Assembly: GCF_949628265.1 (NCBI RefSeq)
Contig: NC_088787.1
Coordinates: 4,144,501-4,208,500, forward strand
DNA from: Cloeon dipterum
Lineage: Eukaryota; Arthropoda; Insecta; Ephemeroptera; Baetidae
Reading direction: 5' to 3'
Length of the DNA stretch: 64,000 bases
Shown: one piece after another, positions 5,986 through 57,950 of the stretch
Position numbering within the stretch: the first letter of the stretch is position 1
Layout of the letters: each line of letters opens with the position of its first letter
Position numbers and translations under genes: made by a program
Notes under the pieces: model-generated
Databases searched by the model: none
Told to the model about the DNA's origin: nothing
Seen by the model: only the letters and a program-made list of their open reading frames with translations

Positions 5986-6374
5986 TCGCACAGCTTTTGG
6001 TGCTTAAAAAATCTCAATTGATTAATTGAAATAAATCATTTTCAAAATTGGCAACCCGAGGTTGAAAATTTCCATTTGTTTGCATGGTACGTCAGGTCAA
6101 CAATTATAAAATAAGAAGGCATTCACCTATAGAATGTGGCAGAGATTTATAAATAAAATTCCTATTTTGGCTAATCCCGAGCCTCGTCAGCAATCTTGGC
6201 TATTGAAAAACAAACAATTATTTTGCAATATTAATTAACTTTCTGGGTTAACTTTGCGGTTAGGATAATTTAACGAGTATTAACGACAGTAATCAAATTT
6301 TATTGCGTTTGAATTTGCTGGACAAAAACTTTTCATGCATATTATTAAGACACGTATGAGCGTTGTCAATCACT

Positions 6375-21827: not shown

Positions 21828-24302
21828 TTACGGTGCAACGTCATCGTACAGGTGTTCTGGTTGAGCAGGGCCGACGTCGTCGTACTCGACTGGGGCATGA
21901 GGCGCCGCTCCAAATTTCTCGAAACTCGTCGGCCTCGGAGGCAAGGGAGGCAACACTCTCACTCTCCTCGCCGATCGCGAGCTGAGACAGATCTGTTGCT
22001 CAAAGAGACCAGGAGAAGGAGGCGTGGCAGCGACCTGATCGTAAATGAATTCCTTGCACTGCTCTTCATCAGGGCCGACGTCCGGAACTGATAAGGGTGC
22101 AGCGGCACTTCTCGAATCCTCATCTTGGACTTCAGCTTGCTCGTCACGGTAAACGGACAATTGTTGAGCCTCGTTGGTGTTTTGCGTAAGGGGATGATTG
22201 TTCCTCTTCTGTCTCAGGATGAGCCATAAAATGATGAGACTCAACAAGACGACGCAGAACACGATGGAGCAGATCAGAATAATCAGCCTGTATTGGTGAA
22301 ACAAGCTCGGTAGCTCTGTAAATAAAATATAAGAGGCATATTTTATTGGTTTCATTTTTTGGGAAATGGTAGTGATGATTGGAATGGCTAGCCTACGATA
22401 CGATATGCGTCATTTACTCTAGCATGAAAGATATCGCCCTTAAAATTCGTAGAAAAATATGCTTTTTCTTTCTGTTTGGCATTAAAAATTAAGGTGTCAA
22501 TGTCAAGTGAGCTGTGTGTTCAGAGGAAACTTACCTGGGGAGGCCTTGAAGGATTTTGCATCGACTGCAGCCTTCACAAGCCTGTATCTTGACTTATTAG
22601 TATCGTCATCAAACATCGTCATCCAAAGATTTTCACTTTCGTCCAAGGCAAAAGTAAAAGGCCAAACAGGTTTCTGCCCAGCAACCTACAACCAAAATAT
22701 TCACCGACTCCATGATTAAGAATTATTACCTCAATTAAATGAAAACGGGGAAATTCTTTTTATTGATATAGCGGTGAGTTAAATTCTTGAAACCACAAGG
22801 CGGCCATAGTTAAAAATACAATAATAAACCTCTCTATACCTCATAAAAACGTTGCTCCTCAAATGGCTGGGAAGTGTTCCACGAGGAAGTGTAATTCTGA
22901 TACAAAAAGGCTGCATACATGGTCCCGTGGTTGTCCATCAGCATTTTGTATGGTCTGGCATTCCATTTTCCGATTAATATCGGATTTGCAGTTCGAGTTC
23001 CTTTGCGGAGTGCGGCAACGGAAACTGAATAAAGTTCATTGGAGTCGACATTGCTGAGGTAGAGCTTTCTCGCTTCCTCCTTAGGGGTCAGGGCAATGGA
23101 ATAGGTCACTATTCCTGGCGTTTCTACCACCCAAGATTGATTTTTTTCCAAACTAAACACTGCAATGTGCTGTCCACCCAACATAGTGATGTAGGAAAAG
23201 GTTCCATTGGGTGTTTCGTCAATCACCAAATCGTTCATAAATTTTTGGAAAGGAAAACGGTGAATTAGTTTGGTGTGGTTGTTTTTGTTCAAGTCAATGG
23301 TCCAGAGCTTGTAACTGCAATTTTTGCTACCGCTGTCCAGCACCCATAGCTTTCCAACGGAGTCCACTTCTAACGCTTTTGCTTTTTCAATTTTGTTACA
23401 GTCTCCTTTTCCCTGCAAATAGAGGAATTGATTGGCTCTTTTAAAACAGAGTCAAACTCAAAATTTTGCCAAAATATTTAAAACTCGCGGCCACCACAAT
23501 AAAATTAGGTGCAATGACTCAAAAGAAGTATACTCATAATTGTATTTTTGACGCGCGTTTCCTAATCTCAAAGATTTAAAGGAGCTCGCAGCAGACCAGC
23601 GTTCAGTTTTCGAACTTTCAGTGCGGCAGTTTATGCAAAATTTATAAAAAAATTCGGCTAATCGACACTTTGATAGCAAGTCTCGCAGTTTTTTACAATT
23701 AAACTTCTTGCAACTCTTAAAAGAATTCAAGCGTTTTTCTGGTGTCACGCACAACAAAAAGGGGAAAAATAGAGGTCCTGACTAGAAAGTGGGTCAAAAA
23801 TACCTGCATATGCAGCGAAAGAGCAAAAAAAAAACGCCTCGCTGCGTCTCCTTCATACGTGCTGCAATTAATCCCTAATTTCTTTTTTTCGATTTTATTG
23901 AAATCAAATTTCCAGCACAGCTCGAGCTTCTCTATATGCAGATTAAAAAAAACTAATAATGCACACAAACGAAGTGCTACTTACGTGAATGTCCCACGAA
24001 GGGAATGGAGTGAGCTTCGGGGACGCACAGGTCGCTCTGCGTGTCGGCAGAGACACCAGACTGACAGGAATGCCATCAGAGTATTTATCAAGGCTGACGA
24101 AGATCCTTGTCCCGTAGACAGCCATGTAACGAGGCTCGATATCCTCTGGTTTGAAAGTTCCAGCTTCCAAGGCCTGTTTCCTGCTCGCCTCCGACGGCCA
24201 CTTGAAATCGAATTGATTCCACTCGTAGAATTGAGTGAAGTTGGCGGCAATGGCCAGAGATGAAAGGCAGAGCAAGAAAATGACACACAAGAACGGATTC
24301 AT
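21828..24302 (-). CDS. Membrane-anchored Yellow/MRJP-family protein with ITAM-like cytoplasmic tail
   Basis: Four exons: 23985-24302, 22840-23412, 22535-22685, 21828-22315 (1530 nt, 509 aa). MNPFLCVIFLLCLSSLAIAA is a signal peptide. Residues ~21-345 form a Yellow/major-royal-jelly propeller (FKPEDIEPRYMAVYGTRIFV, SVGKLWVLDSG, YSIALTPKEEARKLYLSNVD, FALDESENLWMTMFDDDTN). Unlike ordinary secreted Yellow proteins it continues through a transmembrane helix (358-381, RLIILICSIVFCVVLLSLII) and a basic stop-transfer RQKR into a ~125-residue tail. The tail has FIYDQV, a PPLPPRP stretch and, at the end, EYDDV and LYDDV with Tyr492 and Tyr504 spaced 12 apart, the ITAM spacing, using Val for Leu/Ile. The start choice gives the signal peptide directly. 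Receptor function is inference; the family's known members act in cuticle pigmentation or as secreted food or carrier proteins. An ectodomain-less paralog lies at 33268-34225. Confidence 0.85.
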
Positions 24303-33267: not shown

Positions 33268-34225
33268 ATGTCTTCGGTCCTCGACCTCCTGGACTCGCCA
33301 GGTAAGTTTAATCTGGACACTGTTCCCTTGGAAAAATGCCAAAAGAAATGGGGGAAATTCATGTTTCTTCGTAATTAAAACCTACCAAAGAGCACATTTT
33401 AATTATTATGTTGCTAAAAATGACGAATACTAAAGGGTTCGCTATGCAGCCAACCGCAGCCTGGGCCGGCATTTTATTTTGTATTATTTCTAGACGCCAA
33501 TTTCCAGTTTCACCTTTGTGAAATTTCTCAATATGGTTGTTAATCTTAATTAAATTATTATCAGTATAATATGGCTGGTCATGTCAATTTATTCAAATTA
33601 CGCCAAGTTATATTCCATTTCCCTTGAGACCAAACCAATCTCATGCGCCTGTTACACCTTTCCAGAACAAATCAGCGGGAATAGTACTGCAATAGCCGAG
33701 GTGCAGGAGAGCAGCATCCTGACGGAAAAATTGCACCAATATCGGCTATTGATCCTCATTCTGATCTGCTCCAACATGTGCACCGTGATCCTGTCGAGTT
33801 TGATCATTCTTTTGCTCGTCCTGAGAAAGAAGAGGAACAAGTCCATTCTGCAAAACACCAACGAGGCCCAGGAAATGTCCGTTATCGCCGACAACCACGG
33901 TGACGTCGGCCCCGCGGAAGTGCCGCTGTACGAGGAAGTAAAATACGACCAGGCCGCTGCCAGGCCCCTTTCTGCTGGTCTCTACGAGAAGCCAATACGT
34001 CTCAGCCCGCGATCGGCGAAGAAAGTAAAAGCGATGCCTGAGAGGCAGAGGACTTTCGAGAAATTCGGAGAGGCACCTCGTGCTCCAGTTCAGTTCGAGT
34101 ACGACTACGTCCGCACTGTTGAACCGGAACATCTGTACGATGACGTTGCACCGGAAACTTCCACGACACCACGTTGCAAAGACGCTGCTTCCGAGTCTGC
34201 GCAATACCTGAAACTCTTGCCTTGA
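33268..34225 (+). CDS. Short transmembrane protein with ITAM-like tail, paralog of the Yellow-TM tail
   Basis: Two exons, 33268-33301 and 33666-34225 (594 nt, 197 aa), joined in phase (CCA G|AA). The short N-terminus MSSVLDLLDSPE replaces the propeller. The transmembrane helix (39-64) follows KLHQYRLLILIL, matching HQYRLIIL of the Yellow-TM protein. The tail shares the NTNEAQ, Y-DQ-A-A-P-S-GL, SARKV-type, TFEKFG-AP-APV and EPEHLYDDVAP blocks with it, and Tyr157/Tyr169 keep the 12-residue ITAM spacing (YDYV, YDDV). It also has an upstream LYEEVKYDQ motif and a final QYLKLL. There is no signal peptide; insertion by the helix as signal anchor is expected. The own promoter argues for a real gene and not a fragment, but a decaying copy cannot be excluded. 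Confidence 0.7.
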
Positions 34226-36160: not shown

Positions 36161-39100
36161 CTACGCAAGCTCCTTTAGCTTTTGGACCAAATCTAAATCA
36201 GGGGTTTCCACATTTTCAGCGTAGTCTAGCGCACATTTTCCCTCTCGGTCTTTCGCGTGGACATCAACGTGTTTTCTCAGCAGTTGTTTAGAAACGTCCC
36301 ACCTTTTTAATTTGCAAGCGAGAATCACCGCTGTTTCACCCGAGTTGTTTTTTGCGTTTAAATCCACAAATCCTTGATCCACGAACCACTGATATTTAAT
36401 GTGAGCATTTTTGGATCTAATTGCAAAATGCAGAGACGTATCTCCGTTTGGCAGACGCTGTTTCACTAAATCAATATTTTTCTCAGCAATGAACTGAAAC
36501 ATGGAAAATTGGTTTATCGCGTGGTGCGCAGCATTTTTCCCTTCAAAATCTGTCAAAGTCAAATCCCCACCAAATTCTAGGAGTTTATCTACTACATCTG
36601 TGCTTCCTCTTTGTGCGGCGTAATGCAAGGGGACGCACCCTTCAAAATCAGCTTTATTTACGTCTGCTCCATTTTTGAGCAAAAATTCGAGGGGTCTTAA
36701 GTTAGAATCATGAAAAACTGCAAAATGAAGTGGGGACCGTCTAAAATTATCTAATGAGTTCACATCGACGCCTGACAACAAAAGCTCATTCACGAAATCC
36801 AAATGATCGTAACAAACCGCAAAATGAAGAGCTGTCCAACCGTCATGGGCTTGTTGGCTCAAATCTCCACCAAGGGTAATCCACGTTCGCAAAGCTTCCA
36901 AATCCCCCATTTTCGCGGCCACATGCAAACACGATTGTCCTTTTTTATTCCTAAAATCAAGGTCGACATCTTTCGTCATTAAATAGTCGACACAATCTAA
37001 GTTTCTTTCCAAAGCAATATCCAATGCTCTTTGGCCTGTGTTATCCTTGATTTTTAAAGTGTCGATTCCGATCATATCCAGAAAATCCATAGTCCGATAG
37101 TCCAGAAAACTTTTGTTCAAATCTTCGTCAAAACTCTCTATAAAAATATGCAATCCAGTTTGGCCATATTCCGTTGTTTCCTTAGCCAACAGACAATCTT
37201 TGCTGTGCAACAATTGAATCAATTCTGATCCAGGTTCGGAGATTAATCTATAGCAAGCGAAATGAAAAGCGTTCCATCCGTTTTTGTCTTTTGCTCGAAT
37301 ATTAACACCGGACTCAATCAATTTGTGAACTAATGTCACATAACCGTGTTCGACTGCACACATCAATGCAGTTCTTCCTCTTTCATCAACTTTGTGAATA
37401 TTCCTTTGAAGCATTAAGAAATAGTCCAAGAAAAGATTGTAAGTATCTGAACGACAATTCCCCGGATGTCCGCTTGGAAGCAAACCATTTAAGTCAACGC
37501 CCACTTCGTCTACAAGCCAAAGGCACGCGTCCAAATTATTGCGCATTACTGCTAAATGTAACGGACTTTCACCTTCAGCTGTGGCCAGGAATTTAATGTT
37601 TGGGCTTTTTTCCAACAAGTACTTCGCAATTTCTATGTGGCGATGAAATATTGAGTAGTGGAAAGCATTCCATCCTTCTTTAAACTCATCAATTTCAAAA
37701 GAAATGGCGTCACGTTGCAATCCACTGATTTTTTCTTCCAAAAGAAATTTTACCAGGTTTAGGTGAGCGTTTTGAACAGCGACTATTAATGGATCGCGGT
37801 ATATATTCGCTTTTGTTTTCGTTCCTTTAGCGCCCTGTTCTAAAAGGATTTTTACGTTGTACACATTTCCTTTGCAGCAAGAAGTGTAAAGAGCCTCTTC
37901 AAGATTTGAAATCACAACTCCCATTTGCACAAGTAAATCGAGAAGTTTATCGTGCTTCTTGCAAAGCAACTTATTGACTGCGTATATTTCATACCCTTTC
38001 GACTTGACCAACTCTGGCAATGAACTAAACTTCTGTCTCAGCATCTCAAGAAAGGAAATGGCGTTGTATGTTTCCGCATAAGATAATAAATGAGGCAGAT
38101 ATTTTACCAACTGAGCCTCACTTTCAAGAAAATCCATTTCAACAAACTGAGCGGCAATTTCGTCGGCATGTTCAATCGATAAGGTCAAGAGCTCAATGTC
38201 ATTTGCCAGGTAAATGTAATCTTCTCCTCTTTCACTAAATGATAGATAAGGTTTCAAAATCCCGAATGTGTATTTTAAGTTACTCAAAATAACTAATTTC
38301 ATAAAGTTTGCTGGACTTGATTTCGCTGCTGCGAGAACAGTTTCTCTGTGTAAATTCATCAATTTTTCATTATTGAGAATTGTGGAATAGAATAGATCCA
38401 GAAACCTGAAACACTGACGAAACTTCTCAATGTGATGACGAATTCCTACCGTATTCTTCCCGTTCAAGTCAAACAATGGTACGTTGGAAGTAGTATCTAC
38501 CGTAATATCTCTTATGAATTTTTCGGTTGTGAGAAATTCAGCAAATGTCTGATGTAAGAAAATGATTCTTTCGTTTTCAAAAGAGGCAACCCCCAAGCCA
38601 TTGATTTGCTCAAAATTTGCGTGTCTCTCACAAAAACCATCGTTATCAATGTAACGAAATGCTACATTTTGAAGAAGATTGAGTGATTCTTCAACTCTTT
38701 CTTGAAACTTCGCATTATCCTGCCCGTATCCTTCTCGATGTATTAAACACTCTTCAACTTTATGCCTGATAACTTTGTCATAAATTTTGTACAAGTTACC
38801 TTCATTCCCGCACTGAGCAACTAAAGAGAGGTGCAAAGGATTTTTCAAGATGTCTATCAGAGGAAAATTTTTGATAAATATTTTGCAATCATTTTCACTC
38901 TCGCCAGTTTCCATCTGATATAATTCGACTTGTTTTTCTTTGTTCAGAGGTTCGATTTCCACTAAAACAGCTTCTGAAACTACTCTCTTGATCGCTTCTA
39001 CCCCATGAGGTCTTGTTCCAATCCAAACTGAAATTTTTTCCTGTTTTAAAACCTCGATTAATTTCAGCATTTTTTCTCGGAATTCTAGACAGATTTCATC

Positions 39101-42100
39101 AAATCCATCAAGAATGACGATACATATATTTTTTTTGACAATCTCAGTAACCTCGTCAGACGAATGATGTGTGAATTTTGCTAAGAATTCGAATTCCTTC
39201 AATGTGCGCGTGTTTATATCAAACGATATTTGTGAGAGAGCAATACGGAATATTTTAAATCCTGGGTTGGTTTTCTTGAGTTGGAACGCCATTTCCCTAA
39301 GAACAGTCGATTTTCCTGCCCCCGCGTCTGAGCTTAACAGCCAAATTTTGCTTACCTCTGATGGATTTGCCTTTTTTAACAACTCATCATAGAGTATTGT
39401 CTCACGTGGAAATTGTACTCCGTCCTTTATAAAACTGAAGTCAAGTTTTACAAATGAGCTCGGAATATCAGGAAAGTCAAGTTTAAACTGAAGCGTTGTG
39501 TTGAGCAAATCTTGGTTTTCCTTCGAGACGAGAAGAGATGCGAGCAATTCTTGCAGACATCTTCCTCGTTTCAGCTCTTGGCCCTTCAAGATGTCAATCA
39601 GCTTTTGTTGTTTCTCTGAGGATTAAAATAAAACGATGTTACTATTGAAGAAAGCAGTGATGTTAGTTGTTACCTTTATCGTGCAAAACAAGGACAAGCC
39701 ATCCACTGTGGTTCGTAGCAGATATGTTGTAATTGGGTGTTCTAAGGATCTGAAATAAAAAATTTAATACATTCTAAAATTTTTCAAGAGGTGCTACTTA
39801 CGCATTCACCTTGCATAGGTGCTACTGTTTGATTTAGAACGAAAAATATTTTAGGCTTTCCGATCCACTTGTCGTTTTTTGGGCCAATGAATCCGTGAAG
39901 GAATTCGGAGATTTTCTTTTTCTCATTGTCCACAAGAACGCAAATTTCGTTTGAGTTGCTTGTTTCACTCACTTGTGCAAACAAACACGTGATAATGCAG
40001 CCAACGTTTGGTGGAAGACTAGAAGCTGTGCAAAAGTAAAAATACCCTTAATAAATAAGAAAAAACTCTAAAAGATTATTTGTACCTTCTCCGACAAAGA
40101 GCTCCAAGTTATTTGCATTGAGAGTTCTTTCGCTGACCTCGAAATCTAGGTTCATAAGTCCATCTCTCATTGTATTCACCATGCGATCAGGTTCAGTGAA
40201 CAAAATAAATGCTTGGCGATGTCGCATTTTTTCTCCCGAGGGTGACGCCCAAGGGTAAAATTCTCCTACTGAATCCACAGCAGGCTCCTCCGGTCTAACT
40301 CCCTTACCGTCAGAGGTTGAGCCAGAAGAGATCGGTGCATTCAAACTCCTGGAATAAACATTTAATTTCAATATAACATATATATAACCATTACATATCA
40401 CTCATTATTGAAAAAACACAAGGCGCCTTGGCCCTGCGGGCAACCGATGGGCGTTCCGCGCCTGCCCTTTGGGCACTGGTACTTGTACGTTGAGGTAACC
40501 AAAAGAATCGTTATAAGCGACAGCACCGGCAAAACCGAAACCTGAGGAAGGTCGGTGAAGGGCAATGGTCACAAATTCTTGACCGGGTATACTGCCATAA
40601 ATGTGTTCAAAATCGCTGCAAACCCTTGAAAAACTGACCTCATAGAGAATCTCAGGTCGTGAAACCCTGAAAAAGGTCACACCAGATTGAAGCAAAGACC
40701 GTGACCTGTCCGACGAGGAGTCGAGGTCGACAATCGGACGACCCGGCCGAATTTTAAACAAAAATAAAACCACTCTTGCATATGTGACCAATACACAATT
40801 CGCCTTGCCGAAAAAACTTCTTTTCTTTTTCCCATGGGAACGAAAATGCCCTGTATCAGGTATTTCAGGCCGAAAACAAAACGGCTGGCCGTAAGAATGC
40901 GTGTCACTGGCTGGCTGCGGGGACCAAAAATGATGTGCTTGCGAGCCAGCCGTAAGAACGCCCGTGTGCACGTTTCAGCTCTCCGCGAGTGCAAAACTCC
41001 GTTTTAATTAGCAACGAGAAACTCGGAGGAACAAAAAGAAAAAGAAGCAACGACATCGGAAAAACTGCAATAAATAACCCTCAGGTTACGCAACCTGAGG
41101 GTACAGGGACATGCGAGGGTTAGAAAAACATCATAAGAGTACCACACCTAATGTGCACGAAATCTCTGAAATAGTATTAAAAACGGAACGCATAGAAAAC
41201 CTCAGGTTAGTTGGGGGTACCCTGAAAAAGGCCATTAGGGAATCCCAGTTGAAAGTCCAATCAAAAACCTGTCCCATTAGGGGTCGTGGTCAACAATTGC
41301 TAAAACGGCCGAATTTTCATAAAAAATAAGACCATTTTCTTATGCGCACTTCTCATATGACGCGTTGCGCCAAGATTAAAATAGGAAAAACATAAGTTAC
41401 AATTTTTCTACTCGCGCGAAAATTCTCAAAATCAGTTTCCAAGTCGGCAATTAACCTACGCATGCGATGGAACAGGTGGGAACCCGGTATGAGTCCTTTT
41501 GTTTTGTAAAAAAAGTGAATTTAAATTCACTTTTCAATTTGCCATGACTTTCTTAAAGAAAATGCAAAAAATAGGGTTTTCAAATTTCAAAACCTCTCTT
41601 CTCCTTGAATTTTGATCGTATATCGGCTTTATATTGTTCTTAAAATGATCCCAGATACAATAACCGGGTCATATGGTGCTAAAATGTTTGTAAATTTTTA
41701 TTTTTTCTAAAATTCAGCCGAAAAAATCGAAATTATTCGAAAAATGGTCCGATTATGAAAAATCGCAAATGGATAAATGTTCCTTACCAAGGGGAATCAA
41801 CTCTGTTGCCGGAATGGGTGCCGTCTGGCCCACAGGGCCTGGCTTGGGTGCCAAAAATAAAAGTTTGAAATGTCACAAATCACGTTTTTTTCTTTAAATG
41901 TTAATAACTCGGTTGCTATGAGTTAAAGAGTAAAAAAATCAAACTTTTTCAATTACCGTACATTTCTGCATCTTTTAGGTTCAATTGCAACACCCACCGC
42001 GACCTATAGTGACCCCCAAAATCTGCGCAGTTTTTTTTTAGGTGAAATCATATGGAGGCGCACAACCTTCACTGGGTGGCCACCCTTAGTGAAAAAAATC

Positions 42101-43316
42101 GGCACAGTCGCTGTATCGCATGTCATGTGTAGGAAAGTAAAAAATAGAAAAATAGAACTTACCTGCACAGTGTGAAATTTCTTCTGTGAGTGAAAAGTTT
42201 GACTTCTGGGGTTTGACCAAGGTATTTGCTCTCTTTAAAGTCGTAATCGATCTTTAAGTTTTGATGGACTCTTAACTGTACAGAGGTCAGGACATTGATC
42301 ACAGGTTCGTCCTTCTCCAACGAGTCAAGCACTTGGCACGACAGGTAAGCAAACGTCGATCCAGATTCATTTCGTCTTGCTCGAGTGGCTGCGCAATTTA
42401 ATAATATAAACAAAGTATACTTTTAAGATTCAGGACCTTACTCTCAACTGTCGAGTAAAAGACCACCAAGTTTCGCATCCCAGGGCTGAATGTAATTTGA
42501 GTCGAGTTTTCGTTTTTCATCGAGGTAGGTTTTTGGTTCGCATTAAAAACCACATCATCGATTTCCCCTCGACAGGGCTGTAAATTTTGTAACATATAAA
42601 ATTGAATACGCTGCAGAAAAATTTTCGAGACTTACACCAAAGTTCACGATTTTAAAGCATTCCTCAAAGCCTGATAGCTGTTTGAGAGATTCAAAAATCT
42701 CTTTTGTCGTAAAGGAAACGAAATCGTCTGATTCTGTGCTCTTGTAGTGGTCGGTAAATATCACACCTTCTCTGTTACCGTGAGACAAAATGTAAAGCAC
42801 GAAAACCGAAGGGATGACATCTAAAAATAAACTTCAATTCAAACTTTCCAGGTTTACATCACACTAAAAGGACCTTTGGAGCCGAAAAAACGCAAGAGGC
42901 GCTCTTGGTCTCTGAAAAGTTGCAGGAGGACCTCCTTTTTCGGTGACAAAAGACTGCGGAAGTTACATTTCCTGTTCTGCTTGAAGGTTCTCTCTAGATT
43001 TATTACGTCTTCCTTGTCTCCATGTCGAACTATCTTTGGGTCTCTGGCATTTTTGAATTCGTAATGGACAACCAGGACGCACACACTTGCGAGAAAGTAA
43101 ATTAATCGAAGATGATATAAAATTATGCAAATAAAATACTTGTCTGCGTTTTCTTTGATTGTTTCTCCATTAAATTCTCTCTCAAAATACCCAAGATTTG
43201 CTGGAGCGTCAGGTCGACCCTTTTTTTCACCTGAGATATTATAACAATTAATTTCACGAAATTTTCAAAAGGTCAGTCTTACCCTCCTCTACAATTTTTT
43301 CAGTGTCTGCCTCCAT
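36161..43316 (-). CDS. Caspase / pseudocaspase / NACHT / ankyrin protein, gene 1
   Basis: Ten exons: 43283-43316, 43140-43230, 42874-43085, 42636-42820, 42442-42577, 42163-42388, 40086-40348, 39802-40025, 39674-39749, 36161-39615 (4902 nt, 1633 aa). Caspase domain (~42-294): VCVLVVHYEF, LYILSHG with His126, PCRGE with Cys176, and NLVVFYSTVE plus ESGSTFAYLSCQVLD in the small subunit, so the catalytic dyad is present. A second caspase-like domain (~295-482) has RQAFILFTEP and GKPKIFFVLNQT, with both His and Cys positions replaced (CLFAQ, LNQT). NACHT: Walker A DAGAGKST (~581-586), Walker B IVILDGFDE (~648), GTRP (~682). About 16 ankyrin repeats fill the last ~570 residues. The start ATG is the only one in its exon, and the same site is kept in gene 2. 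The order suggests an NLR-like sensor that activates its own protease. Intron 6 holds a ~1.7 kb repeat. Confidence 0.88.
40420..42110. repeat. Repeat insertion in intron 6 of gene 1
   Basis: The matching intron in gene 2 is 132 bp (56655-56786), here about 1.8 kb. The insert includes TCTCAGGTCGTGAAACCCTG, AAAAAGGTCA, a perfect foldback CCCTCAGGTT / AACCTGAGGG at 41082-41102, and 41340-42000 sequence homologous (inverted) to 18540-19200. Gene 2 keeps only a short TTGGCCCTGCGGGCA stretch at this position. Confidence 0.7.
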
Positions 43317-52378: not shown

Positions 52379-55300
52379 TTACGAACCAAATGATGAGTAT
52401 AGTTTCTCAAACGCGTGCGATAGCCGAGCGCGCCACCGGGTGCGGGACGCTACAAGCTCTTTTAGTTTTTGGACCAAATCTAAATCAGGGGTTTCCTCCT
52501 TTTCAGCGTAGTCTAGCGCACATTTTCCTTCTTGGTCTTTTGCGTGGACATCAACGTGTTTACTCAGCAGGTGTTTAGAAAAGTCCCACCTTTTTAATTT
52601 GCAAGCGAGAAGCAACGCTGTTTCGCCCGAGTTGTTTTTTGCGTTTAAATCCACGACTCCTTGATCCACGAGCCAACAAAAATTCGTGTAAGAACCTTGA
52701 AATAATTGAGATCGTATCGCCAAATGGATAGACGTATCTCCGTTATGCAGACGCTGTTTCACTAAATCAATGTTTTTCCTAGCAATATGCTTCAACATGG
52801 AAAATTGGTATACCGCGTGGTGCGCAGCGTTTTTCCCTTCAAAATCTGTCAAAGTCAAATCCCCACCAAATTCTAGGAGTTTATCTACTGCATCTGTGTG
52901 TCCCCCTTGTGCGGCGAAATGCAAGGGGACTATCCCTTTAAAATCCGCTTTATTTGCGTCAGCTCCGTTTTTTAGCAAAAAATCTAGGGCTCTTTCAAAA
53001 TTATGCGAAGCTGCAACGTGAAGTGCGGTCCGTCCAAATTTATTTGACGAATTCACATCGACGCCCGAGACCAAAAGTTCATTCACGAAATCCAAATGAT
53101 CGTGCAAAACCGCAAAATGAAGAGCCGTCCAACCGTAACGGTGGTCTTGGTGGCTCAAATCTCCACCCAGGGTAATCCACGTTCGCAGTACTTCCAAATC
53201 CCCCCATTTCGCGGACACATGCAGACACGATTCTCCTAGTTTATTCCTAAAATCAAGTTCGACATCTTTCATCATTAGATAGTCAACACCATAATAGTTT
53301 TTTTCCGATGCCAAATCCAATGGTTTCCGGCCTGTGTTATCCTTGATTTTTAAACCGTCGATTCCGATTATATCGATAAGATAGTTTACGGATACGGACT
53401 CGTTTACATATCCGTCACAAGTGTCGAAACTTTCTATAAAAATATGCAGTCCAGTTTGCCCTTTTTCCGTAGTTTCCTTAGCCAACTGACAATCTTTGCT
53501 TTGCAACAATTGAATTATAGTTTTGTACTTTAATCTACAAGCGAAGTGAAAAGCGTTCCATCCGTTTATATCTTTTGCTCGAATATTGACACCAGACTCT
53601 ATCAATTTGTGAACTAATGTCACATAACCGTGTTCGACTGCGCACATCAGTACAGTTTTTCCTCTTTCATCGACCTTGTAAATGTTCCTTTGAAGCATTA
53701 AGAAATAGTCCATGAAAAGATTTTTATGATTTTCTGAACAATCCTTTGGATGTCCACTAGGAAGCAAAGCATTTAAATCAGCGCCCACTTTGTCTACAAG
53801 CCAAATGCACGTGTCCAAATTTTGTTGCAATACTGCTAAATGTAACGGACTTTCATCTTTAGCAGTGGCCTGGAATTTAATATTTGGGCTTTTTTCCAAC
53901 AAGTACTTCGCAATTTCTATGCGGCCATGAATTATTGAGCAGTGGAAAGCATTAAAAATCTCTTTAAACTCATCAATTTCAAAAGAAACCGCATCACGTT
54001 TCCAACCACTGATTTTTTCTTCCAAAAGAAATTTTACCAAGTTTAGGTGATCGAATTGTACAGCGACCATTAGTGGATCATGGCGGAATTCATTCATTGA
54101 GTTTGCTTTCGCTCCTTTAGCCCCCTGTTCTAATAACAAAATTAATTTTACGTTATTCACATTTCCAATACAGCAAGAAATTGAAAGAGCTTCTTTGAGA
54201 TCTGAAATCACAACTCCCATTTGCACAAGTAAATCAATAATTTTATCGTTCCCAATTTGAAACGCCCTTGATCCTGCACATATTTCAGATTCTTTAGACT
54301 TGATCAACTCTGGCAATGAACCAAACTTCTGTCCCAGCACCTTAAGAAAGGAAATCGCGTTGTAAATTTCAGCACGAGATAACAAACGAGGCAGATATTC
54401 TACCAACTGAGCCTCACTTTCAAGAAAATCCATTTCAACAAACTGAGCGGCAATTTCGTCGGCATTTTCAATCGATAAGGTCAAGAGCTTGATGTCATTT
54501 TCCAGGAAAATGTAGTCTTCTCCTCTTTCACGAAATGATATATAAGGTTTCACAATTCCGAATATGCATTTTAAGTAACACATAATAACTAATTTCATAA
54601 AGTTTGCTGGATTTGATTTCGCTGCTGCGAGAAGAGCTTCTCTGTGCATCTTCATCGATTTTTCATTATTGAGAACAGTGGAATAGAATTGATCCAGAAA
54701 CCTGAGGCACTGACCAAACTTCTCACAGTGATATCGAATTTCTATCGTTTCCATCCCCTTCAAGACAAACAACGGTACGTCGGATGAACCATTTTCCGTA
54801 ATGTCTCTAATAAATTTTTGGGCTGTGAGAAATTCGTTAATTGTCGTATGTAAGAATATGATTCCTCCAAGTGCAAAAGAGACAACCCCAAAGCCATTAA
54901 TTTGTTCAAAATCCGCGTCTCTCTCAACATGACCACCTTGATCGATGTTAAGTAATGCCATATTTTGAAGAAGAGAGAGTGATTCTTCAACTTTTTCTTC
55001 AAACTTTGGACTATTCTTCCCGAAACCTTCTCGATGTATTAAACACTCTTCAACTTTATGCCTAATAACTTTGTCATAAATTCTGTACAAGTTATCTTCA
55101 TCCCCGCACTGAGCAACTAACGAGAGCTGCAAAGGATTTTCAAAGATGTCCTTCAGAGGGAAATTTTCTATGAATGTTTTGCAATCATTTTCGCTCTTGC
55201 CAGTTTCCATCTGATATAATTCGACCTGATTTTTTTTGTTAAGATGCTCAATTTTTACTAAAACAGCATCTGAAACCACTGTCTTGATCGCTCCTACCGC

Positions 55301-57950
55301 ATGAGGTCTTGTTCCAATCCAAACTGAAATTTGTTCTTGTTTTAAAACCTCGATTAATTTCAGAATTTTTACTTGGAATGAGTGAGAGATTTCATCAAAT
55401 CCATCGAGGAAGACGATGCATTTTTTACTTTTGACAAATTCAGTGACCTCGTCAAGCGAATGATGTGTGACTTTTGCCAAGAACTCAAACTCCTTCAATG
55501 TGCGCGTTTTAGTGTTAAACGATATTTCCGAGAGGACAATACGGAATATTTTAAATCCTGGGTTTGTTTTCTTGAGTTGGTACGCCATTTCCCTAAGTAC
55601 TGTCGTTTTTCCTGCACCTGCGTCTGACAATGAGCTTAACAGCCAAATTTTGCTCACCTTTGATGGATTCGACTTTTTCAACAACTCATCATAGCATATT
55701 GTATCATAAAAAACATATTCGTCCTTCATAACACGGAAGTCAAGTTTTACAAACGATCTCGGAAAATCAGGAAATTCAAGTTTAAACTGAAGCGTTGTGT
55801 TGAGCAAATCTTGGTTTTCCTTCGAGACGAGAAGAGATGCGAGCAATTCTTGCAGACATCTTCCTCGTTTCAGCTCCTGGCCCTTCAAGATGTTAATCAG
55901 CTTTTGTTGTTTCTCTGGCAATAAAAGTAAAAGTTCAAGTAAATAAGCAAGAAAACAGGGTCGTTAGATGTTACCTTTATCGTGCAAAACTAGGACAAGC
56001 CATCCACTGTGGTTCGTAGCTGATATGCTGTAACTTGGTGTTTTTAATATCTAAAATAAATAAATATAATACAACCTATAACTGTTCAAAATGAGCTAAC
56101 TTACGCATTCACTGTGCATGGCTGTTGCTGTCTGATTTAGAATGAAAAATATTTTAGGCTTTCCTATCCACTTGTCGTTTTTTGGGCCAATGAATCCGTG
56201 GAGAAATTCGGAAATTTTCTTTTCCTCGCTATCCACAAGAACACAGACTTCATTTGTATCGCTTGTTTCACTCACTTGTGCAAACAAACACGTGATAATG
56301 CAGCCGACGTTTGGTGGAAGAATAGAAGCTATGCAAAAGTAAAAATACCCTTTATAAATAATAAAACAAAACATTAAAAGATTTTCTGCACCTTCTTCGA
56401 CAAAGAGCTCCAAGTTATTTGCATTGAGAGTTCTTTCGCTGACCTCGAAATCTAGGTTCATAAGTCCTTCTCTCATTGCATCCACCATGTGATCAGGTTC
56501 AGTGAATAAAATAAATGCTCGGCGATGTCGCATGTTTTCTCCTGAGGGTGACGCCCAAGGGAAAAATTCTCCTATTGAATCCACAGTAGGCTTTTCCGGT
56601 CTAACTCCCTTGCCGTCAGAGGTTGAGCCGGAAGAGAACGGTGTATTGAAACTCCTGGAATAAACATTTAATTTCATTCTTACATAGCCTAACACTCTCA
56701 TTATTGAAAAAACGAATGACACCTACCTCCTTGGCCCTGCGGGCACGGGTCCATCGAGAATATATAAAATAGACTATAAAACTTACTTGCACACTATAAA
56801 ATTTCTGCTGTGAGTGAAAAGTTTGACTTCTGGGGTCTGACCAAGGTATTTGTTCTCTTTAAAGTCGTAATCGCTCTTTAAATTGCGGTGGACTCTAAAC
56901 TGTACAGACGTCAGGACATTGATGACAGGTTCGTCCTTCTCCAACGAGTCAAGCACTTGGCACGACAGGTAAGCAAACGTCGATCCATATGCATTTCGTC
57001 TTGCTCGAGTGGCTGCGCAATTTAATATTATAAACAAAGAACTTTTAAGATTACTCCGGATCTTACTCTCGACTGTCGAGTAAAAGACCACCAAGTTTCG
57101 CATTCGAGGGCTGAATGTAATTTGAGTCGAGTTTTCGTTGTTCATCGAAGTAGGTTTTTGGTTCGCGTTAAAAACCACATCATCGATTTCCCCTCGACAG
57201 GGCTGTAAATTTTGTAACACATAAAATTAAATACGCTGCTAGAAAAATTTTCGAAACTTACACCAAAGTTCACGATTTTAAAGCATTCCTCAAAGCCTGA
57301 TAGCTGTTTGAGAGATTCAAAAATCTCTTTAGTCGTAAAGGAAACGAAATCATTTGGTTCTGTGCTCTGGTAGTGGTCGGTGTATATCACACCTTCTCTG
57401 TCTCCGTGTGACAAAATGTAAAGCACGAAAACCGAAGGGATGACATCTAGAAATAAACTTCAATGCATACTTTACAGGTTTTAAATAAAATTAAGGACCT
57501 TTGGAGCCGAAAAAACGCAAGAGGCTGTCTTGGTCTCTGAGCAGTTGCATGAGGACCTCCTTTTTCGGCGACAAAAGACTGCGGAAGTTGCACTTCCGGT
57601 TCTGTTTGAAGGTTCTCTCAAGATTTATTACGTCTTCCTTGTCTCCATGTCGAACTATCTTTGGGTCTCTGGCATCTTTAAAGTCGTAATGGACAACCAG
57701 GACGCAGACACTTGCGAGACAGTAAATTAATCGGAGATAAATTAAAGTTATACAAAAGAAATACTTGTCTGCGTTTTTTTTTACTCTTTCTCCATTAACT
57801 TCTCTCTCAAAATACCCAAGGTTTGCTGGAGCGTCAGGTCGACCCTTTCTCTCCCCTGAGATATGATAACAATTAATTTCACGAAATTACCCACGATGTA
57901 AAAAGATCGGTCTTACCCTCTAATACAATTTTTACAATGTCTGCCTCCAT
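52379..57950 (-). CDS. Caspase / pseudocaspase / NACHT / ankyrin protein, gene 2
   Basis: Ten exons: 57917-57950, 57765-57855, 57499-57710, 57262-57446, 57067-57202, 56787-57012, 56392-56654, 56105-56328, 55975-56050, 52379-55914 (4983 nt, 1660 aa). All nine 5' exons have exactly the lengths of gene 1. Catalytic LYILSHG and PCRGE are conserved; the second caspase-like domain again lacks both residues (GKPKIFFILNQT). NACHT has DAGAGKTTVLREM and CIVFLDGFDE. The ankyrin region keeps about 16 repeats. Its C-terminus runs about 23 residues past the end of gene 1 (VASRTRWRARLSHAFEKLYS). No stop or frameshift in 5 kb of coding sequence shows selection. The 5' flank is broken by a retrotransposon fragment at 58035. 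Likely role as for gene 1. Confidence 0.88.

Follow-up and report, generated by a model that had tools for sequence, protein, structure and literature searches.

Receptors and caspases in described systems

In NOD-like receptors (NLRs), the binding of a ligand to the repeats is followed by nucleotide exchange and oligomerisation of the NACHT module, and caspases that are brought together become active. Vertebrate NLRs recruit a separate caspase through a PYD or CARD. Caspase-8 and c-FLIP(L) are likewise two separate proteins with death effector domains (DEDs), of which c-FLIP is described as an inactive caspase (PMC8195603). The mayfly Cloeon dipterum carries a gene that is predicted to unite such parts in one chain. 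It lies on the minus strand at 36161–43316 of the window, i.e. of the whole stretch of DNA that was analysed (64,000 nt of contig NC_088787.1, positions 4,144,501 to 4,208,500, assembly GCF_949628265.1). Its modules are, from the N- to the C-terminus, a caspase with an intact active site (N1), a dead caspase-like unit (N2), an NLR-type NACHT and ankyrin repeats.

Fusion of a protease to a receptor has precedents. Fungal NLRs with a caspase-related CHAT protease are presented as pathways that have contracted, with the caspase inside the receptor (PMC10197012; also PMC12881547 and PMC9815663), and ANK, TPR or WD repeats are found among the partners. However, CHAT represents another branch of the caspase fold, and a dead second caspase unit is not mentioned in the available parts of these papers. 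A transcript of the sponge Dysidea avara, which BLAST assigned to NLRC4 (PMC11229196), is also predicted to combine NACHT with a caspase-family peptidase (PF00656) in an animal, but it is a single transcript, and ankyrins, a pseudocaspase or a gene family do not appear in the accessible part of that report. The NACHT/NB-ARC proteins of Acropora carry CARD, DED or Death N-termini and several types of repeat (PMC4083563); as far as the available text goes, they resemble the mayfly genes in their lineage-specific tandem expansion and in having ankyrins among their partners, but differ at the N-terminus, where the mayfly genes have a caspase pair.

Various arthropods are said to be without bona fide NLRs (PMC7308585, available in part). 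NACHT proteins are nonetheless annotated in the phylum, as “LRR and NACHT” proteins of Ixodes in a tick review (PMC4141456) and as NLR and NACHT-WD40 sequences in a termite transcriptome (PMC3712931). Unlike the mayfly family, these are few genes with other repeats, and the portions of the two sources at hand do not mention a caspase unit on the same protein. NACHT, ankyrin and caspase are all unmentioned in the main text of the mayfly genome paper (PMC7250882). In the open-access literature, with subscription papers mostly outside its scope, no described chain of caspase, dead caspase, NACHT and ankyrin repeats was found. The original prediction from this DNA had called the order of the four modules unknown from any described family, which stands for that literature; the joining of receptor and protease, in contrast, has the fungal and sponge precedents, so far as these partly available sources show.

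Organisation of the gene

The gene comprises 10 exons in a phase-consistent chain of 1633 codons with one stop. Exon 1 (43283–43316), with a putative choice of start codon at 43316, and exon 2 (43140–43230) precede exon 3 (42874–43085), which encodes the first part of N1 including an Arg of the S1-pocket type (VRHGDKED). The catalytic His126 of N1 (LYILSHG) is found in exon 4 (42636–42820), its catalytic Cys176 in exon 5 (42442–42577, junction NFG/PCRGE) and a small-subunit-like part (GQTPEVK) in exon 6 (42163–42388). Beyond intron 6 (40349–42162), N2 begins in exon 7 (40086–40348) and continues in exon 8 (39802–40025), which holds its dead catalytic positions (CLFAQ, LNQT) and a GKPKIFF motif, and in exon 9 (39674–39749) with the motif TNHSGWLV. 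The long exon 10 (36161–39615) encodes the end of N2, NACHT (match at 38921–39328), the ankyrin repeat region (36164–37882, limits approximate) and the stop codon.

The introns measure 52–60 nt each, except intron 6 with 1814 nt. The donor of intron 3 (AAAG/GTCCTT) is weak, yet an intron of the same phase stands there in 19 of the 20 paralogue models described below. Intron 4 was set at 58 nt, with a GTAAGT donor, which gives the junction NFG/PCRGE and the 1633 codons; a 25-nt version, leaving 11 extra residues in the protein, was rejected. All 11 residues of this provisional splice were present in the query of the Pfam scan and of the genome search for N1, and 7 of them in the query of the splice-aware alignment; the unexpected residues that precede PCRG in some paralogue rows stem from this.

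The open chain of 1633 codons claimed in the original prediction is thus borne out, His126 and Cys176 occupy identical positions in the spliced model, and CLFAQ and LNQT read as written there. Its proposal that recognition, oligomerisation and protease would be on one chain is supported as a gene and module architecture predicted from the sequence.

A large clustered family

Genes of the N1-N2-NACHT-ankyrin type form a large, probably lineage-specific family and do not reflect a chance arrangement. This membership, including that of a second copy inside the same window, had been overlooked. The genome searched amounts to 190 Mb; it comprises 10 contigs, of which five measure 33–43 Mb, and contains 101 NACHT matches. 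Among the matches listed, N1 and N2 both lie upstream of NACHT, on its strand and at no more than 5 kb, at 78 of the 101 loci, N1 at 82 and N2 at 84, while one caspase unit alone is seen at 10 and neither at 13; as a control, the downstream side of that strand was checked and has N1 at a single locus. The input to this count consisted of 150 of 214 N1 matches and of 98 N2 rows selected among those listed out of 186; N2 rows spanning just the NACHT-adjacent stretch were mostly left out, and one N1 or N2 row could serve two neighbouring genes. In places the count is too low, as L037 and L038 were scored N1-only, yet N2 could be modelled in both. Two clusters, at 0.79–4.70 Mb of contig C2 (30 NACHT matches) and 29.2–36.1 Mb of C4 (45 matches), together account for 75 of the 101.

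For a closer comparison, 20 NACHT loci were read with 10 kb around each, a non-random choice of 9 near a caspase match and 11 with high-scoring NACHT rows. Splice-aware alignment, to which introns were not given, produced family models for 19 of these 20 loci and for the second window copy. The resulting table of 21 genes unites the 19 paralogues with the two window copies; L040 is unlike the family and was left out, and the divergent L034, L037 and L038 are less secure members. Counts over 26 copies also take in five partial loci (L017, L020, L021, L025 and L028). Two more partial loci, L010, which stopped short of N1, and L012, were omitted as duplicates of loci in the count.

For eight of the nine introns, both position and phase are conserved in 18–20 of the 20 paralogue models. 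Intron 4 is common to only 4 of 20, a count disturbed by the provisional-splice residues in the query, and intron 1 was in many models given a long extent that is probably erroneous. Since the N1–N2 intron measures 50–173 nt in 19 of the 20 paralogue genes (132 nt in the second window copy, WIN2, and in L039), the long intron 6 is, judged from these gene models, a local enlargement and not a gene boundary. Within it, stretches with 63–75 % identity to 18.5–19.4, 46.1–46.6 and 49.4–49.8 kb of the window are found, and this similarity to other places suggests an old repeat insertion. Pairwise distances of N1, N2 and NACHT among 20 genes are closely correlated (r 0.93–0.95), which indicates that the modules were mostly duplicated as one unit.

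In the genome, NB-ARC gave two matches, both coinciding with NACHT rows, and the CARD family gave one, so that no expanded set of CARD adaptors is seen. The telomere pattern TTAGG gave 0 matches, and COX1 a single fragment that fell below the cut-off. Some caspase matches occur apart from the family. Tandem caspase clusters at C5:27147932-27160033 and C4:1033374-1039141, with no listed NACHT beside them, are probably ordinary caspases, and N1-type matches at C4:29991825, 29996944 and 30569480 and at C1:20967490, with no listed NACHT within 8 kb, are possible stand-alone or broken members.

The two caspase units

N1 matches PF00656 with an E-value of 3.8e-11 over residues 43–278 (numbered on the provisional splice with its 11 extra residues), and an 8-member N1 profile finds caspase-3 at E 6.8e-10. 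Its His (S/A-H-G) is kept in 21 of 21 modelled copies and its Cys (P/S-CRG) in 26 of 26; the equivalent of the S1-pocket Arg64, read by eye, is retained in 19 of 21. CHAT (PF12770) is not listed by Pfam, which reports Peptidase_C14 instead (E up to 10). N1 looks like an intact caspase and is a candidate active protease.

The catalytic residues of N2 are lost throughout, with His in 0 of 26 and Cys in 0 of 26 copies, while core motifs are still present (GKPK in 18 of 21 copies, TNHSGWL in 19). A 13-member N2 profile gave 134 matches among PDB sequences (E up to 10), the best 60 of which are all caspases; a reconstructed effector caspase comes first (E 4.5e-7) and caspase-8 is found at 8.5e-5. 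The match covers the large-subunit part. Of three alignments shown, two stop just before the catalytic Cys and the third places a non-Cys residue opposite it. Taken singly, 4 of the 13 members match PF00656 (best E 8.6e-6), whereas Pfam reports no caspase for N2 of the 36161–43316 copy by itself. Because the profile finds caspases in the PDB and individual members match PF00656, N2 is a caspase homologue at the level of sequence profiles, demonstrated for its large-subunit part, which upholds the caspase-like second unit with lost catalytic positions first proposed. The combination of an active caspase with a dead homologue would recall caspase-8 and c-FLIP(L), and caspase-8 also ranks among the top hits listed for the N2 profile. 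N1 and N2, however, share one chain, and neither shows a DED in Pfam.

NACHT and ankyrin repeats

Exon 10 matches NACHT PF05729 (E 9e-11) and Ank_2 (E 6.5e-71). The Walker A and B motifs, read here as DAGAGKST and ILDGFDE, with TRPH in the same match, are intact as originally described; in the family, Walker A (GK[ST]) is found in 21 of 21 and Walker B (DG[FY]DE) in 20 of 21 copies. A structure model of NACHT from a 21-member alignment reached a pLDDT of 75, and Foldseek returned 138 matches with it at E<=0.001 (best E 2e-8), the best 50 being headed by NLRC4, NLRP9, NLRP3, NLRP7 and NOD2. The module thus appears to be NLR-type. Vertebrate NLRC4, NLRP3 and NOD2, whose structures the mayfly model matches first, share with it a NACHT with Walker A/B motifs and sensor repeats at the C-terminus. 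In the place of the C-terminal leucine-rich repeats (LRRs) of a strict NLR, however, the mayfly protein has ankyrin repeats, and unlike in the vertebrate inflammasome NLRs the caspase is on the receptor chain. The estimate of about 16 ankyrin repeats is plausible, although the number itself was not confirmed: a crude profile made from the protein's own repeats gave 13 stretches and Pfam Ank gave 10.

Close copies and constraint

WIN2 (52379–57950, minus strand) is a second complete member with the same 10 exons. It is 91 % identical to the 36161–43316 copy in N1 and 74–75 % in NACHT and ankyrins. A third close copy, L039 (C2:4108000-4117900), lies about 64 kb from the gene. Among these three copies, dN/dS amounts to 0.15–0.23 for N1, 0.34–0.70 for N2, 0.49–0.55 for NACHT and 0.46–0.54 for the ankyrin part; the low values of N1 beside the higher ones of NACHT and ankyrins would point to a constrained effector next to a faster-changing receptor part. 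Intron 7 of WIN2 has no stop in frame, so that a transcript retaining it could be translated through. Exon 10 of L039 seems to be interrupted near locus position 6088–6141, by a shift of frame or by an additional 53-nt intron; neither window copy has such an intron.

A probable single-chain receptor-protease

We consider it fairly probable that these genes encode a single-chain NLR-type receptor-protease, in which the ankyrins would act as sensor and NACHT as oligomeriser, with N1 switched on by proximity and N2 as a built-in partner. The basis in the sequence is the open chain, the order of the modules, the conserved N1 dyad, the dead N2, the NLR-type NACHT, the expansion of the family and its constraint; from these we infer an immune role, ligand sensing, N1–N2 pairing and protease activity. 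The ankyrin repeats would detect a ligand or a disturbed host protein, upon which the nucleotide-bound NACHT would switch and oligomerise. N1 domains brought together in this way may be activated by their closeness, in the manner of initiator caspases, and no adaptor would be needed since N1 is on the receptor chain. N2 would stay as the built-in partner or regulator of N1, by analogy with c-FLIP for caspase-8. Active N1 might then cleave itself, host substrates or other caspases, and the cell would be killed or alarmed.

Several results weigh against this scheme. For N2, hhalign found no match between the N1 and N2 profiles, and dN/dS is as high as 0.70 in one pair. AlphaFold gave a pLDDT of only 53 for the large-subunit half of WIN2 N2 (a construct that included 21 codons of intron 7 but lacked the small-subunit part), and Foldseek with this poor model returned no match at E<=0.001; the best matches (E 0.036) were to other folds, with caspase-3 at rank 44 (E 0.51). 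The Foldseek matches of NACHT have low TM scores (about 0.3) and rmsd values mostly of 11–20 Å. In addition, the genome search yielded no gasdermin match, and hence no obvious pyroptotic target, whereas fungal CHAT-NLRs have gasdermin genes nearby according to the available parts of the sources. Finally, in N1 the Gln of QACRG is replaced by Gly, and the Arg207-equivalent is R in the 36161–43316 copy, with T, S or G in its place in roughly half of all copies (both read by eye).

The last two substitutions make the Asp specificity of N1 doubtful, and N1 might retain its dyad in an altered S1 pocket and have another specificity or act mainly as a scaffold, as the paracaspase MALT1 partly does. 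We regard this as rather doubtful, since the dyad is conserved in the copies read, the Arg64-equivalent is mostly kept and constraint on N1 is the strongest among the four modules. A different role for N2 is also conceivable, that of a dominant-negative pseudocaspase which holds N1 inactive in cis until NACHT oligomerises or cleavage occurs. The uniform loss of N2 catalysis with retention of its core motifs, and the rarity of loci with one caspase unit alone (10, against 78 with both and 13 with neither), would fit such an inhibitor, which we nevertheless think unlikely: no common Asp for the release of N2 was seen in the N1–N2 linker (AVDS in the 36161–43316 copy, TVDS in WIN2, AVES in L039 and TSTSEF in several others), and an inhibiting and an activating N2 lead to the same sequence expectation, so the sequence does not separate them.

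That a caspase gene and an adjacent NACHT-ankyrin gene were falsely joined over intron 6 is suggested by nothing but the 1814 nt of this intron and is hardly credible. The original prediction had named a split into two genes between 40.3 and 42.2 kb as what would overturn it; the same-place, same-phase short intron of the paralogues contradicts such a split, and together with the co-occurrence of both caspase units upstream of NACHT (N1 being almost never downstream) it led us to reject it. The large clustered arrays would also suit a family that is not directed at pathogens but has a selfish, reproductive or self-recognition role, comparable to fungal incompatibility NLRs. We judge this improbable; nothing specific speaks against it, and the dN/dS values, which stay below 1 in every module of the three copies compared, do not decide the matter.

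Other features of the window

An exon of the yellow/major royal jelly protein family (PF03022, E 7.4e-22) is found at 22834–23451 on the minus strand; a gene of this kind is in keeping with arthropod DNA. Two related open frames, at 33554–34225 (plus strand) and 21828–22409 (minus strand), have the look of single-span membrane proteins with similar tails (..EHLYDDVAP..); their resemblance to TMEM154 is weak and below the cut-off.

Implications

More tentatively than the single-chain reading itself, and at somewhat less than even confidence, we suggest that an inflammasome has collapsed into a single polypeptide that unites sensor, oligomeriser, initiator caspase and cis pseudocaspase in what is probably an arthropod lineage, and has been multiplied to about 78 or more genes. 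If true, an animal would possess, in dozens of copies, an adaptor-free receptor equipped with a caspase as well as a dead partner of caspase type, and the family would be a direct test case for the regulation of caspases by pseudocaspases in cis. It would also bear on intracellular threat sensing in the arthropods, some of which are said, in the available part of the source, to lack bona fide NLRs (PMC7308585).

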